Shown: in pieces, positions 21,215 to 60,510 of the stretch
Numbering within the stretch: position 1 is the first letter of the stretch
How the letters are laid out: every line of letters begins with the position of its first letter
Assembly (NCBI RefSeq): GCF_014196535.1
Contig: NZ_JACIDU010000010.1
Coordinates: forward strand, 1-64,000
Reading direction: 5' to 3'
Length of the DNA: 64,000 nucleotides
From: Allorhizobium borbori
GTDB taxonomy: Bacteria > Pseudomonadota > Alphaproteobacteria > Rhizobiales > Rhizobiaceae
The notes under the pieces: generated by a model
Databases searched by the model: none
What the model was told of the DNA's origin: nothing
The model's input: the letters and a program-made list of their open reading frames with translations, nothing else
Made by a program: the position numbers and the translations under genes

Positions 21215-21248
21215 AAAAGAAAAACCCGGCTGGCGAACCAACCGGGTT
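21215..21248 (-). terminator. Intrinsic terminator of pckA
   Basis: On the minus strand an 11-bp stem (AACCCGGTTGG / CCAGCCGGGTT, one G-T pair) with a TTCG loop is followed by TTTCTTTT. It starts 28 bases after the pckA stop and partly overlaps a parS-like site. Confidence 0.9.
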
Positions 21249-48716: not shown

Positions 48717-48732
48717 TGTTTCACGTGAATCT
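48717..48732. promoter_or_regulatory. parS-like site A (gyrB-nitroreductase spacer)
   Basis: TGTTTCACGTGAATCT matches the ParB target TGTTTCACGTGAAACA at 14 of 16 bases. With the second site (48759-48774) it forms a perfect 16-bp inverted repeat (arms 48716-48731 and 48760-48775) separated by 28 bases. Non-coding, about 10.5 kb from the proposed oriC. Confidence 0.65.
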
Positions 48733-48758
48733 GTGAAATCCAAGGCAAGCGGGAAGCG

Positions 48759-48774
48759 CGATTCACGTGAAACA
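48759..48774. promoter_or_regulatory. parS-like site B (gyrB-nitroreductase spacer)
   Basis: CGATTCACGTGAAACA matches the ParB target at 14 of 16 bases; inverted partner of site A. Confidence 0.65.
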
Positions 48775-48840: not shown

Positions 48841-51321
<2,481 letters not shown>

Positions 51322-56758: not shown

Positions 56759-57615
56759 GCGTGATTTTCCATGTCGGCGATCACCAGAGTGCGCAGGGTT
56801 TCATCGACAGCGGGACGCCGGCCAAACCACTTTTCGAAACCCGGCACGGCCTGATACAGCAGCATGCCGAGGCCATCAACGATAGCAAGACCCTGCGCTT
56901 CTGCCATCGCCAGGATTGGCGTCATGAGCGGGACATAAACGATATCGGTCGCAACGGCGCCGGTTTTCATGGACGAGAAATCGATATCGGGAACGTCTGA
57001 TCCATCCATGCCGAGCGAAGTCGTGTTGACGAAGAGGCCCGCTCCTTTCATCACCTCCGGCAAGGCCTCCAGGGAATGGGCGTGAATCCGATCTCCAAAG
57101 CGATCGGCCAGTTCCCGGGCCCGGTCAAGCGTGCGGTTCAGCACATGGATCTCGCCGATGCCGCGGTTGCGCAGTGCCTGAAGAATGGCCCGGCTGGCAC
57201 CGCCCGCACCCAGCACGACAGCACAGTCTGTCATATCCCAGCCCGGATGGCGCTCATCGAGATTGGCGGTGAAGCCCATGCCATCGGTATTTGTCGCCTT
57301 CAACCGCCCTTCTTCCAGCCAGAGCGTATTCGCCGCACCGAGTTCGGATGCCAGCGCATCCGGCTCATCGGCCAGAGCAAAAGCCATTTCCTTGTGAGGG
57401 ATAGTGACATTGCCACCGCGAAAGCCGCTCGTGCCTTCCTTCAGCGCCGAGATGAAAGCCGGGAAATTTTCCGGCGCCACCTCCTGCGCCGTGTAACTTC
57501 CGTCAATCCCAAGTGTCTTCAACCAATGGCCATGAATGAGCGGCGAGCGTGAATGTTTCACGGGATAACCGGTCACGAAGGCCTTTTTGGTTAATGTTTC
57601 ACGTGAATCAGCCAT
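56755..57615 (-). CDS. aroE: Shikimate dehydrogenase
   Basis: 286 aa. Reduces 3-dehydroshikimate to shikimate with NADPH. The substrate motif [15 protein letters not shown], the catalytic Lys in [10 protein letters not shown] and the NADP loop [12 protein letters not shown] followed by LNRT are all present. The ATG at 57615 (GGGGGAG upstream) starts 8 bases inside the maf gene, and codons 3-7 coincide with the best parS-like site. Confidence 0.97.
57595..57610. promoter_or_regulatory. Best parS-like site, in maf/aroE overlap
   Basis: TGTTTCACGTGAATCA differs from the ParB target TGTTTCACGTGAAACA at one position. It lies 1.5 kb from the proposed oriC and within codons of aroE, with its edge over the maf stop. 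Confidence 0.75.
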
Positions 57616-58250: not shown

Positions 58251-59072
58251 CTAACGCAGCTTTGGGCGCAGGGCAACGATGGCCGCCGCCGTTTCCTCGA
58301 TGGAGCGGCGGGTGACGTCAATCACCGGCCAGTTGTTGCGAGCACAGAGCGCGCGGGCATATTTCAACTCCTCCGAAATTGCCGCACGATCCGTATAATG
58401 CATGTGGTCATAGCCGGAGACCGTGCCAAGCTCGCGGTGTTCGCGAACCTGGGAAATACGATCGGAGGTCGCGATCAATCCGACGATCAGCGGCTTCGTT
58501 GCCGTAAACAGGGCCTCCGGCAGCGTAACGCCGTGAACGATCGGAATATTGGCTGTCTTGATGCCGCGATTGGCGAGATAGATGCTGGTCGGCGTTTTAG
58601 ACGTGCGGCTGACGCCGAGAATGATGACATCGGCCTCATCGTAATCCTCCGGCATCTGACCATCGTCATGATCCATCGCGAAGTTCAACGCTTCGATCCG
58701 CGCAAAATAATCCGCGTTCATCAAATGCTGCGCGGAAACCCGGCGACGCGATGGCGTTCCGAGATAAAGCTGGAACACATTCATTACCGGCTCCAGCACA
58801 TTGGCCGTCGGCACGCCGATCTCACGGCAACGTTCATCAACCAGCCCGGCCAGTTCCTGATCCACCAGTGTATAGAGAACAATGCCTGGCTCGGCATCGA
58901 TGAGTTCCAGAACCGCCAGAAGCTGCTTGCGGCTTCTGATGAGCGGATAGACGTGTTCAACGGGCTGGGCATCGCGAAACTGCACGGAAGCGGCACGGCC
59001 GGCGGAAATCAGCGTTTCTCCGGTCGAGTCCGAGATCAGATGCAGGTGGAAGAAGTTTTTGCGGTTTTCCAC
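58251..59072 (-). CDS. Pyruvate, phosphate dikinase / PEP synthase regulatory protein (DUF299)
   Basis: 273 aa bifunctional kinase-pyrophosphorylase that switches PEP synthase or PPDK. The N-terminal [13 protein letters not shown], the [25 protein letters not shown]-loop-like segment and the [18 protein letters not shown] region are family hallmarks. It starts with GTG (AGGATAAC upstream). First gene to the left of oriC, transcribed away from it. Confidence 0.95.
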
Positions 59073-59475
59073 GTTATCCTGACCACCCTGTTGATAGACC
59101 GGGAGAGTTTACCGGATTTGCCGGAGCGGTTCCGACGCTAGGGGAAAACCGCCCAGTTTTCCACATTCGGAATTTCATCTCCTATCGAAAACCATGCCCT
59201 GTGAACAAGACTCATAAAGGATCACTCTTCAAAAGCCATACACTCGTTATCCACAAGTCCGTTTGAATTTGACGATCCGCTATAACACTGATTCCCTTGG
59301 CATAATCCGTATTATCCCCCGTCTTCAGGAAAATGGATATTTTCCAATGCAATCCGTGTTGGAAAACACCCTGTCGCGGCATTTTGTCGGGATTGATTTT
59401 AATCCTTGCTACTCACCGACTCTAAGAAATAGAAAATCCGAAGATTCCTATTTTATTTGATTGGAGACAGAGGTC
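59073..59475. other. Proposed chromosomal replication origin (oriC)
   Basis: 403 bp without a gene, AT-rich compared with its surroundings. It has one perfect DnaA box TTATCCACA (59247-59255), a TTTTCCACA (59157-59165) and, on the minus strand, a TTGTTCACA (59208-59200), each one base from consensus. Four GANTC (CcrM) sites occur at 59209-59213, 59290-59294, 59418-59422 and 59443-59447. The AT-richest part (59385-59460) abuts hemE. In Caulobacter and Rickettsia the origin lies beside hemE, and the same place has been proposed in Sinorhizobium. No TTAA-N7-TTAA CtrA site was found by eye. Confidence 0.75.
59247..59255 (+). promoter_or_regulatory. DnaA box (perfect)
   Basis: TTATCCACA, the consensus DnaA 9-mer, in the middle of the oriC spacer. 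Confidence 0.8.
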
Positions 59476-60510
59476 TTGCAGGCAAGCGAACGGAAAATCA
59501 TGAGGGTGCTTTCGGGAGAAACGGTGGCACCCCCGCCGCTTTGGCTTATGAGACAGGCAGGTCGCTATCTCCCCGAATACCGGGAAACCCGCGCAAAGGC
59601 CGGAAGTTTCCTCAATCTCTGTTACAATCCGGAACTGGCGACGGAAGTGACCCTTCAGCCAATCCGGCGATATGGTTTCGACGCTGCGATCCTCTTCTCC
59701 GATATCCTCGTCATTCCCGACGCACTTTCGCGGAATGTCCGGTTCAACGTCGGGCACGGCCCGGAGATGGACCCGATCGATGCCGACGGTATTCGCGCCC
59801 TTTCGCCGGTTGGTGTTCTCGATCATCTCAGGCCGGTCTTCGAAGCGGTCAGCCGTATTCGCGCGGGGCTGCCGGTCGAAACGACCCTTCTCGGCTTTTG
59901 CGGCGCACCCTGGACGGTTGCGACCTACATGATCGCCGGCAAGGGAACGCCGGATCAGGCCCCTGCCCGTCTTTTCGCCTATCGTTATCCAGAAGCCTTC
60001 GCCCGGCTTCTCGATGTCCTCGCCGATATTTCTGCCGATTATCTCGTTGCCCAGATCGACGCCGGCGCGGACGCCGTGCAGATTTTCGATTCATGGGCCG
60101 GTGTTCTCGGCGAAGCGGAATTCGAGGCTTTCGCCGCGCAACCCGTCAGACGCATCATCGCTTCGGTGAAAGCACGCCGGCCACAGGCGAAGATCATTGC
60201 CTTTGCCAAGGGCGCGGGGCTTCTGCTCAAGGATTATCGCCAGATCACGGGTGCAGATGCGATCGGGCTTGACTGGTCGGTGCCATTGAAGTTTGCCGTC
60301 GATCTGCAGAGGGACGGCGCGGTTCAGGGCAATCTCGATCCGATGCGGGTTGTTGCGGGTGGCAAGGCGCTGGACGATGGGATCGACGCGATCCTGCAAT
60401 CGCTGGGGCATGGCCCGCTGATTTTCAATCTCGGCCATGGCATCACCCCGGAAGCCAATCCTGACCACGTTACGGCACTCGTAAAGCGCGTTCGAGGCGA
60501 ATTGGCATGA
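59476..60510 (+). CDS. hemE: Uroporphyrinogen decarboxylase
   Basis: 344 aa. Converts uroporphyrinogen III to coproporphyrinogen III. The signature [31 protein letters not shown] and FDSWAGVL (substrate Asp) are complete. The start is uncertain: TTG 59476 with GGAG 9 bases upstream is preferred, TTG 59461 or ATG 59500 being alternatives. Stop overlaps hemJ by ATGA. The upstream region is the proposed oriC. Confidence 0.95.

Follow-up and report, generated by a model that had tools for sequence, protein, structure and literature searches.

A conserved hemE-proximal element as a candidate opening module of the probable chromosomal replication origin in Rhizobiaceae

The DNA analysed here, referred to as the window, is the whole stretch of 64 kb taken from the start of a contig 193 kb in length, belonging to a draft genome of 4.81 Mb. 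ORF calls and Pfam searches revealed a divergent gene pair, in which a Kinase-PPPase gene encoded on the minus strand (58251-59072) and a hemE gene encoded on the plus strand lie on either side of a spacer at 59073-59478. The flanking genes therefore point away from the spacer, just as the original prediction had described. The locus is composed of the following features:

58251-59072, minus strand: ORF of a kinase/pyrophosphorylase (PPDK regulator, PF03618; DUF299/COG1806 type; Pfam E 2e-88), left flank of the predicted origin
59073-59478, no strand: spacer, very probably oriC, 406 bp, GC 0.447
59461-60510, plus strand: ORF of hemE, uroporphyrinogen decarboxylase (PF01208), right flank of the predicted origin
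59461 (TTG, the first), 59476 (TTG) and 59500 (ATG), plus strand: candidate hemE starts, all in frame

The AT-richness ascribed to the spacer is evident from its GC content of 0.447 versus 0.610 for the whole 64-kb window. The lowest-GC 200-bp segments of all 64 kb are located there (down to 0.40), the next AT-rich places being near 22.9 kb (0.425) and 54.1 kb (0.46), and the stretch at 59437-59478 has a GC content of 0.38. A search against Rfam gave no match in the spacer and a single chance-level match (E 0.45) at 58909-58968.

Within the spacer, four sites related to the DnaA box are of particular concern:

59247-59255, plus strand: perfect DnaA box TTATCCACA, one of eight in the draft genome
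59157-59165, plus strand: DnaA box TTTTCCACA, one mismatch, with TTATCCACA as family consensus, separated by a near-constant distance from the conserved element listed further below
59089-59097, minus strand: DnaA-box-like site CTATCAACA, two mismatches, alignment columns well conserved
59200-59208, minus strand: degenerate DnaA box TTGTTCACA, two mismatches, family consensus there TGTGGATAA

The perfect box had been foreseen, together with two boxes carrying one mismatch, of which only that at 59157 lies in the spacer; the next one, at 59985, is placed within hemE. Sites with two mismatches were found at 59074, 59089 (minus strand), 59200 (minus strand) and 59312. Perfect boxes occur 8 times in the 4.81-Mb draft, an expectation of about 7e-4 per 406 bp, versus 18 times for the reversed control word. 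At the density of the window, a stretch of 406 bp has a probability of also about 7e-4 of holding two boxes that deviate by one mismatch or none. A perfect box is also present in the matching spacer of both closed relatives inspected, Shinella sp. H4-D48 and R. leguminosarum Norway. The sparse arrangement of boxes noted at the outset is real, and represents a conserved design of the family.

All four of the GANTC sites announced for the spacer are present, at 59209, 59290, 59418 and 59443. Their number has a probability of about 0.005 at the density of the window; against Markov shuffles of the spacer itself, 2.70 sites are expected and the probability is about 0.29. Since the count fits the composition of the spacer, the number of GANTC sites does not constitute evidence. 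A modest excess was observed across 28 family spacers (mean 3.46 versus 2.08 expected), and among the four sites of the spacer it is the one at 59418 that is strongly conserved.

For the comparison within the family, the 30 best of 146 family matches were combined with the best 80 of 581 named loci, a sample that leans to near relatives because the loci are best matches, and in which one species may occur twice. The PPPase gene was found as divergent neighbour of hemE in 101 of 111 hemE-bearing records (110 loci and the window). After leaving out the duplicate L004, 100 spacers remained, 96 of them distinct. L026 and L029, in which no PPPase gene was found beside hemE, were left out of the spacer, element-matrix and geometry counts, and eight further loci devoid of the PPPase neighbour were also left out of the spacer alignment and geometry. 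The spacers have a median length of 406 bp (middle half 404-408), and their middle is weakly conserved in sequence across the family. At the hemE-proximal end, on the other side of this weakly conserved middle from the box at 59157, the following features were identified:

59401-59436, plus strand: conserved hemE-proximal origin element AATCCTTGCTACTCACCGACTCTAAGAAATAGAAAA, 36 bp
59409-59417, plus strand: degenerate DnaA box CTACTCACC within the element, four mismatches
59418-59422, plus strand: GACTC, a conserved GANTC (CcrM-type) site within the element
59424-59435, plus strand: track with A at every third base (59425, 59428, 59431 and 59434)
59421-59471, no strand: candidate DNA unwinding element, with the lowest duplex stability of the region, overlapping the right half of the conserved element

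The element can be described as AATCCYYG, a degenerate DnaA box, GASTC and TAA-GAA-NNA-GAA. Its core pattern of 17 bases, searched with a tolerance of one mismatch, occurs in 76 of 151 family genomes versus 23 of 151 for a reversed control word, and 72 of the 77 matches sit 27-98 nt upstream of hemE and in the same direction. When the core pattern was searched class-wide, it was found in 25 of 289 genomes (own genome included), below the approximately 66 obtained with the reversed control word. A matrix built from the 96 distinct spacers scored positive in 54 of 60 further genera, on the strand of hemE and starting 62-205 nt upstream of it, the six with negative scores being G006, G022, G044, G080, G109 and G131. 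With a refined matrix the element was accepted in 84 of 88 genomes and rejected in four (G044, G006, G080 and G131); this matrix was tuned on the sequences scored and compared with a mononucleotide shuffle as null, and the test on 60 genera is the less circular of the two. Two hemE-like matches each are present in G033 and G131, and the G131 copy examined is devoid of the element. Coding sequence was considered as an explanation for the conservation and rejected, because the distance between the element and hemE shows no fixed value modulo 3.

Conservation within the element is concentrated at several positions. GACTC or GAGTC occupies 59418-59422 in 81 of 84 genomes, with C as the middle base in 58 and G in 23 of these 81 sites, and A or T in none. 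The adenines at 59425, 59428, 59431 and 59434 are kept in 98-100% of the 84 genomes, and at least three NAN triplets follow from 59424 on the box strand in 82. Out of 28 nine-base frames inspected on both strands, the frame at 59409 is the most similar to a DnaA box, with a mean of 3.42 mismatches over the 84 genomes versus at least 4.8 for all other frames; one mismatch was found in two genomes, and the box is perfect in G005. Nearest-neighbour duplex stability, averaged over 83 profiles, is lowest in 30-bp windows that start 20-40 nt after the start of the element.

The position of the element relative to the remaining parts of the spacer is strikingly regular. A counterpart of the 59157 box, with no more than one mismatch, is present in 97 of 100 spacers; its distance from the start of the PPPase gene is 84-85 nt (5-95%), and in those 97 it is separated from the hemE-proximal element by a median of 243 nt (5-95%, 240-246). 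Distances from the PPPase gene to the element have a standard deviation of 3.2 versus 14 for those from the element to hemE, a difference caused by the tails, as the middle halves are equally tight (326-329 and 77-79, respectively).

In regard to the spread of the element beyond the family, 153 class genomes were searched for hemE, 128 of them gave a match, and the 29 best of these matches served as the outgroup. The left half of the element (AATCCYYG and the box) scored above the 99% null upstream of hemE, on either strand, in 16 of these 29 loci, while only 2 of 29 downstream controls exceeded even the 95% null. On the strand of hemE, 17 of 29 loci scored above 8.5, and in 13 of these 17 the corresponding position is occupied by a box with at most two mismatches, such as GATCCCCGTTATCCACAGG in L300. 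The right half exceeded the 99% null in none of the 29 loci and appears to be family-specific. No description of the conserved element was found in the open-licence literature searched, a body that misses most subscription papers.

Structures with a similar order of parts are found in the BUS of Bacillus subtilis, which, according to three papers (PMC8287927, PMC10721633, PMC6669920), shares with the element a DnaA box, a short spacer, a triplet-periodic track and a weak duplex, in the same order. For the comparison, the rule was taken from PMC8287927, and the trio strand was set as the complement of TTATCCACA, in keeping with the 3′-GAT-5′ wording of these papers. By this rule the element is not a BUS, because its box has at most two mismatches, as the rule demands, in only 20 of 84 genomes and more than two in 64 (four in the window), and at least three 3′-NAN-5′ trios within 16 nt of the box are present in only 5 of 84. 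In addition, the near-invariant adenines of the element are located on the box strand, and not on the complement strand as the trios of the BUS. Elsewhere in the Rhizobiaceae spacer, a candidate BUS with a box of at most one mismatch was found in 26 of 84 genomes, a number for which the shuffle control is an unfair comparison, as it destroys the boxes. In other alphaproteobacteria, a run of three trios follows the box in only 4 of 17 loci, although CTA-containing tracks follow several boxes, and for this reason no canonical BUS is claimed there.

The DnaA residues at the positions that contact the trio in B. subtilis differ as well. In B. subtilis DnaA, according to PMC10721633, the trio adenine is held by Asn187 and the guanine by Arg202 and Glu228, with Ile190 and Ile193 on either side of the third base. 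Alignment to the structure 8btg places Trp251 and Ala254 of the own DnaA at B. subtilis positions 187 and 190. Among 50 alphaproteobacterial genomes chosen from those at hand, tryptophan and alanine were found in 20 of 20 sampled Rhizobiaceae (four of which, G072, G076, G091 and G093, were not among the genomes scored for the element), and Y, F or H together with V or I in 30 of 30 others. These others include three members of the sister family, with Y or H and V, while the remaining 27 all combine Y or F at the first position with V or I at the second. Near B. subtilis Glu223, DnaA is one residue shorter in both Rhizobiaceae and the sister family. Four genomes in which the element is unrecognisable (G044, G006, G080 and G131) also encode the tryptophan and alanine form. 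Because all Rhizobiaceae are related, the association between the element and DnaA may represent a single event. Asparagine at the position of B. subtilis Asn187 was present in none of the 50 alphaproteobacterial DnaA sequences, which have Y, F, H or W instead, so that Alphaproteobacteria as a whole may follow a different trio rule. Histidine at this position was found in G222 of the sister family.

The chromosomal context is informative for the nature of the spacer. On the 193-kb contig, with 1-kb bins, the minimum of the cumulative GC skew lies at 62 kb and that of the keto skew lies at 60 kb, so that the skew minima of the own contig fall 0.5-3 kb from the spacer (59.07-59.48 kb). Chromosome-wide skew was followed in two closed chromosomes of relatives, each represented by 40 sampled pieces of 20 kb. 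For Shinella sp. H4-D48 (NZ_CP093337.1), the top-ranking skew switch is at 109 kb, in the piece that follows hemE, and the runner-up is at hemE itself (32 kb), which locates the switch within about 0.1 Mb of the hemE locus. In R. leguminosarum Norway (NZ_CP025012.1), the top-ranking GC-skew break lies at 0.33 Mb, some 0.73 Mb beyond hemE, with the second best beginning at hemE; for keto skew, under the same coarse sampling, the best break is at 0.45 Mb and hemE comes fourth. The GC-skew minimum expected at this place was recovered close to it on the own contig, and the skew of the Shinella chromosome fits, while the R. leguminosarum chromosome is ambiguous. Within 21-kb loci of the family, skew is greater to the right of the spacer than to the left in 66 of 71 loci, and a local minimum at most 2.5 kb from the spacer was detected in only 37 of 71. 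In PMC1914354, skew is described as insufficient for several alphaproteobacteria.

Candidate partition sites are distributed around the locus, the nearest one within the window being:

57595-57610, no strand: parS-like site TGTTTCACGTGAATCA, one mismatch to the consensus

The contig holds further 14-mers of this kind at 21245, 48717 and 48759, and beyond the window at 64173, 66156 and 81399, in addition to that at 57.6 kb, all with at most one mismatch to the parS consensus. Exact copies are two, both beyond the window, and five Markov shuffles of the contig yielded zero 14-mers with at most one mismatch. A first, less suitable word was found at 20 places in the own genome versus 28 for its control, without excess; only the GTTTCACGTGAAAC form stands out. 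The genes parA and parB are located at approximately 66.8-68.5 kb of the contig, beyond the window. Among the matches listed, two GTTTCACGTGAAAC sites are present 3.6-7.4 kb from hemE in G057, G071 and G097. Two of the parS-like sites of the window lie 42 bp apart (48717-48774), just past the 3′ end of a gyrB-like gene, recognized by eye at 48841-51300 on the minus strand.

The Sinorhizobium meliloti chromosomal origin, which belongs to the same family and has a hemE-side location, was reportedly described by Sibley, MacLellan and Finan in 2006. The search for regulator sites used the CtrA motif TTAA-N7-TTAAC and the IHF consensus. The spacer of the window has no full CtrA site and one AACCAT half-motif at 59190; among the 100 family spacers, TTAAN7TTAA is present in 1 and TTAACC in 13. 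IHF consensus sites without mismatch were found in 12 of 100 family spacers versus 2.2 expected, a weak excess mostly located 200-209 nt into the spacer, and the window has one-mismatch IHF sites at 59281 and 59084. Origins between hemE and COG1806 have been published for Caulobacter and Rickettsia, as stated in PMC1914354. PMC1914354 and PMC8959179 present Cori of Caulobacter crescentus as having the same divergent gene pair and an AT-rich spacer with DnaA boxes, and also five CtrA sites, which differs from the spacer of the window with no full site. The latter is in line with the S. meliloti origin, which, according to PMC4433202, is not bound by CtrA. For B. abortus, CtrA is likewise reported not to bind the origin in PMC2877005, and the control route is called indirect and unknown (PMC4433202, PMC2877005). 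The location of the origin beside hemE is, accordingly, already known and expected from relatives.

On these grounds we are highly confident that the spacer is the chromosomal replication origin, and the hemE-side alphaproteobacterial position originally proposed for it is supported by the published setting, the skew, the parS-like sites and parAB. An origin placed beside dnaA, the arrangement common outside Alphaproteobacteria, would find some support in R. leguminosarum, where the coarsely sampled skew break falls within the arc from hemE to 0.33 Mb, on which dnaA (1.2 kb) is also located. We nevertheless regard it as very improbable in the genome under study, as the skew minimum of the contig is near the spacer, the parS-like sites and parAB are near hemE, and dnaA resides on another contig (C1), separate from that of hemE and holding no perfect DnaA box. 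In thirteen genomes searched for the distance between the two genes, they were on different contigs in the own genome and in G097; in 8 of the 11 one-contig genomes (G057, G069, G085, G099, G104, G121, G151 and G152), dnaA and hemE are about 245-520 kb apart, and in G061, G071 and G138 the separation, measured along the contig and not round the circle, is 3.1-3.5 Mb. The box, the AT-richness and the GANTC sites could also be accidental parts of a long promoter region serving the two divergent genes, given that such genes need promoters and that the GANTC number fits the composition of the spacer. This explanation seems the least credible of all, in light of the near-constant 406-bp length in the core family, the spacing between box and element kept across weakly conserved sequence, and the skew, parS-like sites and class-wide setting.

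The role of the element within the origin leaves more room for doubt. It is possible, even if rather unlikely, that the spacer is the origin while the element is mainly a hemE promoter or a GcrA/CcrM-controlled regulatory site, with opening taking place elsewhere in the spacer. Such a function would agree with the placement upstream of hemE and on its strand in 54 of 60 genera, with the GANTC present inside the element in 81 of 84 genomes, and with a distance to hemE which in the core family is as tight as that to the PPPase gene. It is opposed by the smaller spread of the PPPase distance in the whole set, by the 240-246 nt that separate the element from the far DnaA box, by the left half, a degenerate DnaA box similar to the genuine boxes of other orders, by the three genomes that keep the module without GANTC even with CcrM present, and by the fact that no -10-like hexamer is evident by eye in the element. 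We somewhat prefer to consider the hemE-proximal element as the opening module of oriC, divergent from the BUS, because a box remnant, a triplet-periodic track and a weak duplex are united in it, at a nearly constant distance from the other box; as derived from sequence comparisons, this is the probable reading, by no means a secure one.

With the element as an opening module, initiation could proceed as follows. DnaA would bind a small set of boxes, those at 59157 and 59247 and, more weakly, those at 59089 and 59200. Located about 243 nt away on the hemE side, a second module, built of the degenerate DnaA box, GASTC and the track with A at every third base, and both overlapping and adjoining the least stable DNA, would direct DnaA from the duplex onto the single strand, thus opening the helix there. 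Forks would leave both ways, past hemE and past the PPPase gene, and ParB on the surrounding parS sites would then segregate the copies. We infer the DnaA binding, the opening at the element and whatever part the triplets or CcrM methylation may play from the features computed above.

A more far-reaching and doubtful possibility is that Rhizobiaceae possess a rewired unwinding module, in which the box has decayed and the canonical trios have been lost, so that a DnaA carrying Trp/Ala in the trio pocket instead reads TAA-GAA-NNA-GAA on the opposite strand, starting at a GASTC whose CcrM methylation could gate opening. If true, such a module with a GASTC gate would provide a direct replication licence where CtrA is reported not to bind the origin, as in S. 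meliloti and B. abortus. In any case, the 36-bp element, the DnaA box geometry and the clade-specific change in the DnaA pocket offer a concrete site and a protein-DNA pair to probe, and the conserved element tests the reach of the DnaA-trio rule. In regard to methylation, CcrM is encoded in 149 of 151 genomes. Loss of CcrM together with the GANTC of the element was predicted and failed, as G026, G039 and G132 have no GANTC there and yet encode CcrM, which speaks against a strict methylation role. Because of this failure, and because the middle base is never A or T, which a plain CcrM site would allow, CcrM methylation is considered here as no more than a possibility. PMC11514494 describes A. 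tumefaciens ori1, on the circular chromosome, as DnaA-dependent and CcrM as affecting mainly ori2, and this argues against a simple CcrM gate in the present origin.

Two of the loci inspected deserve separate mention. In L303, which derives from G222 of the sister family, the divergent PPPase-hemE pair is also present, and GAGTC followed by an A-rich, TAATAAAAAG stretch near hemE is perhaps a divergent form of the element. L112 (JAHREI010000001.1), titled Bacillus subtilis strain SK6B4, holds a Rhizobiales-type hemE, the PPPase gene and the element, and looks mislabelled or contaminated.
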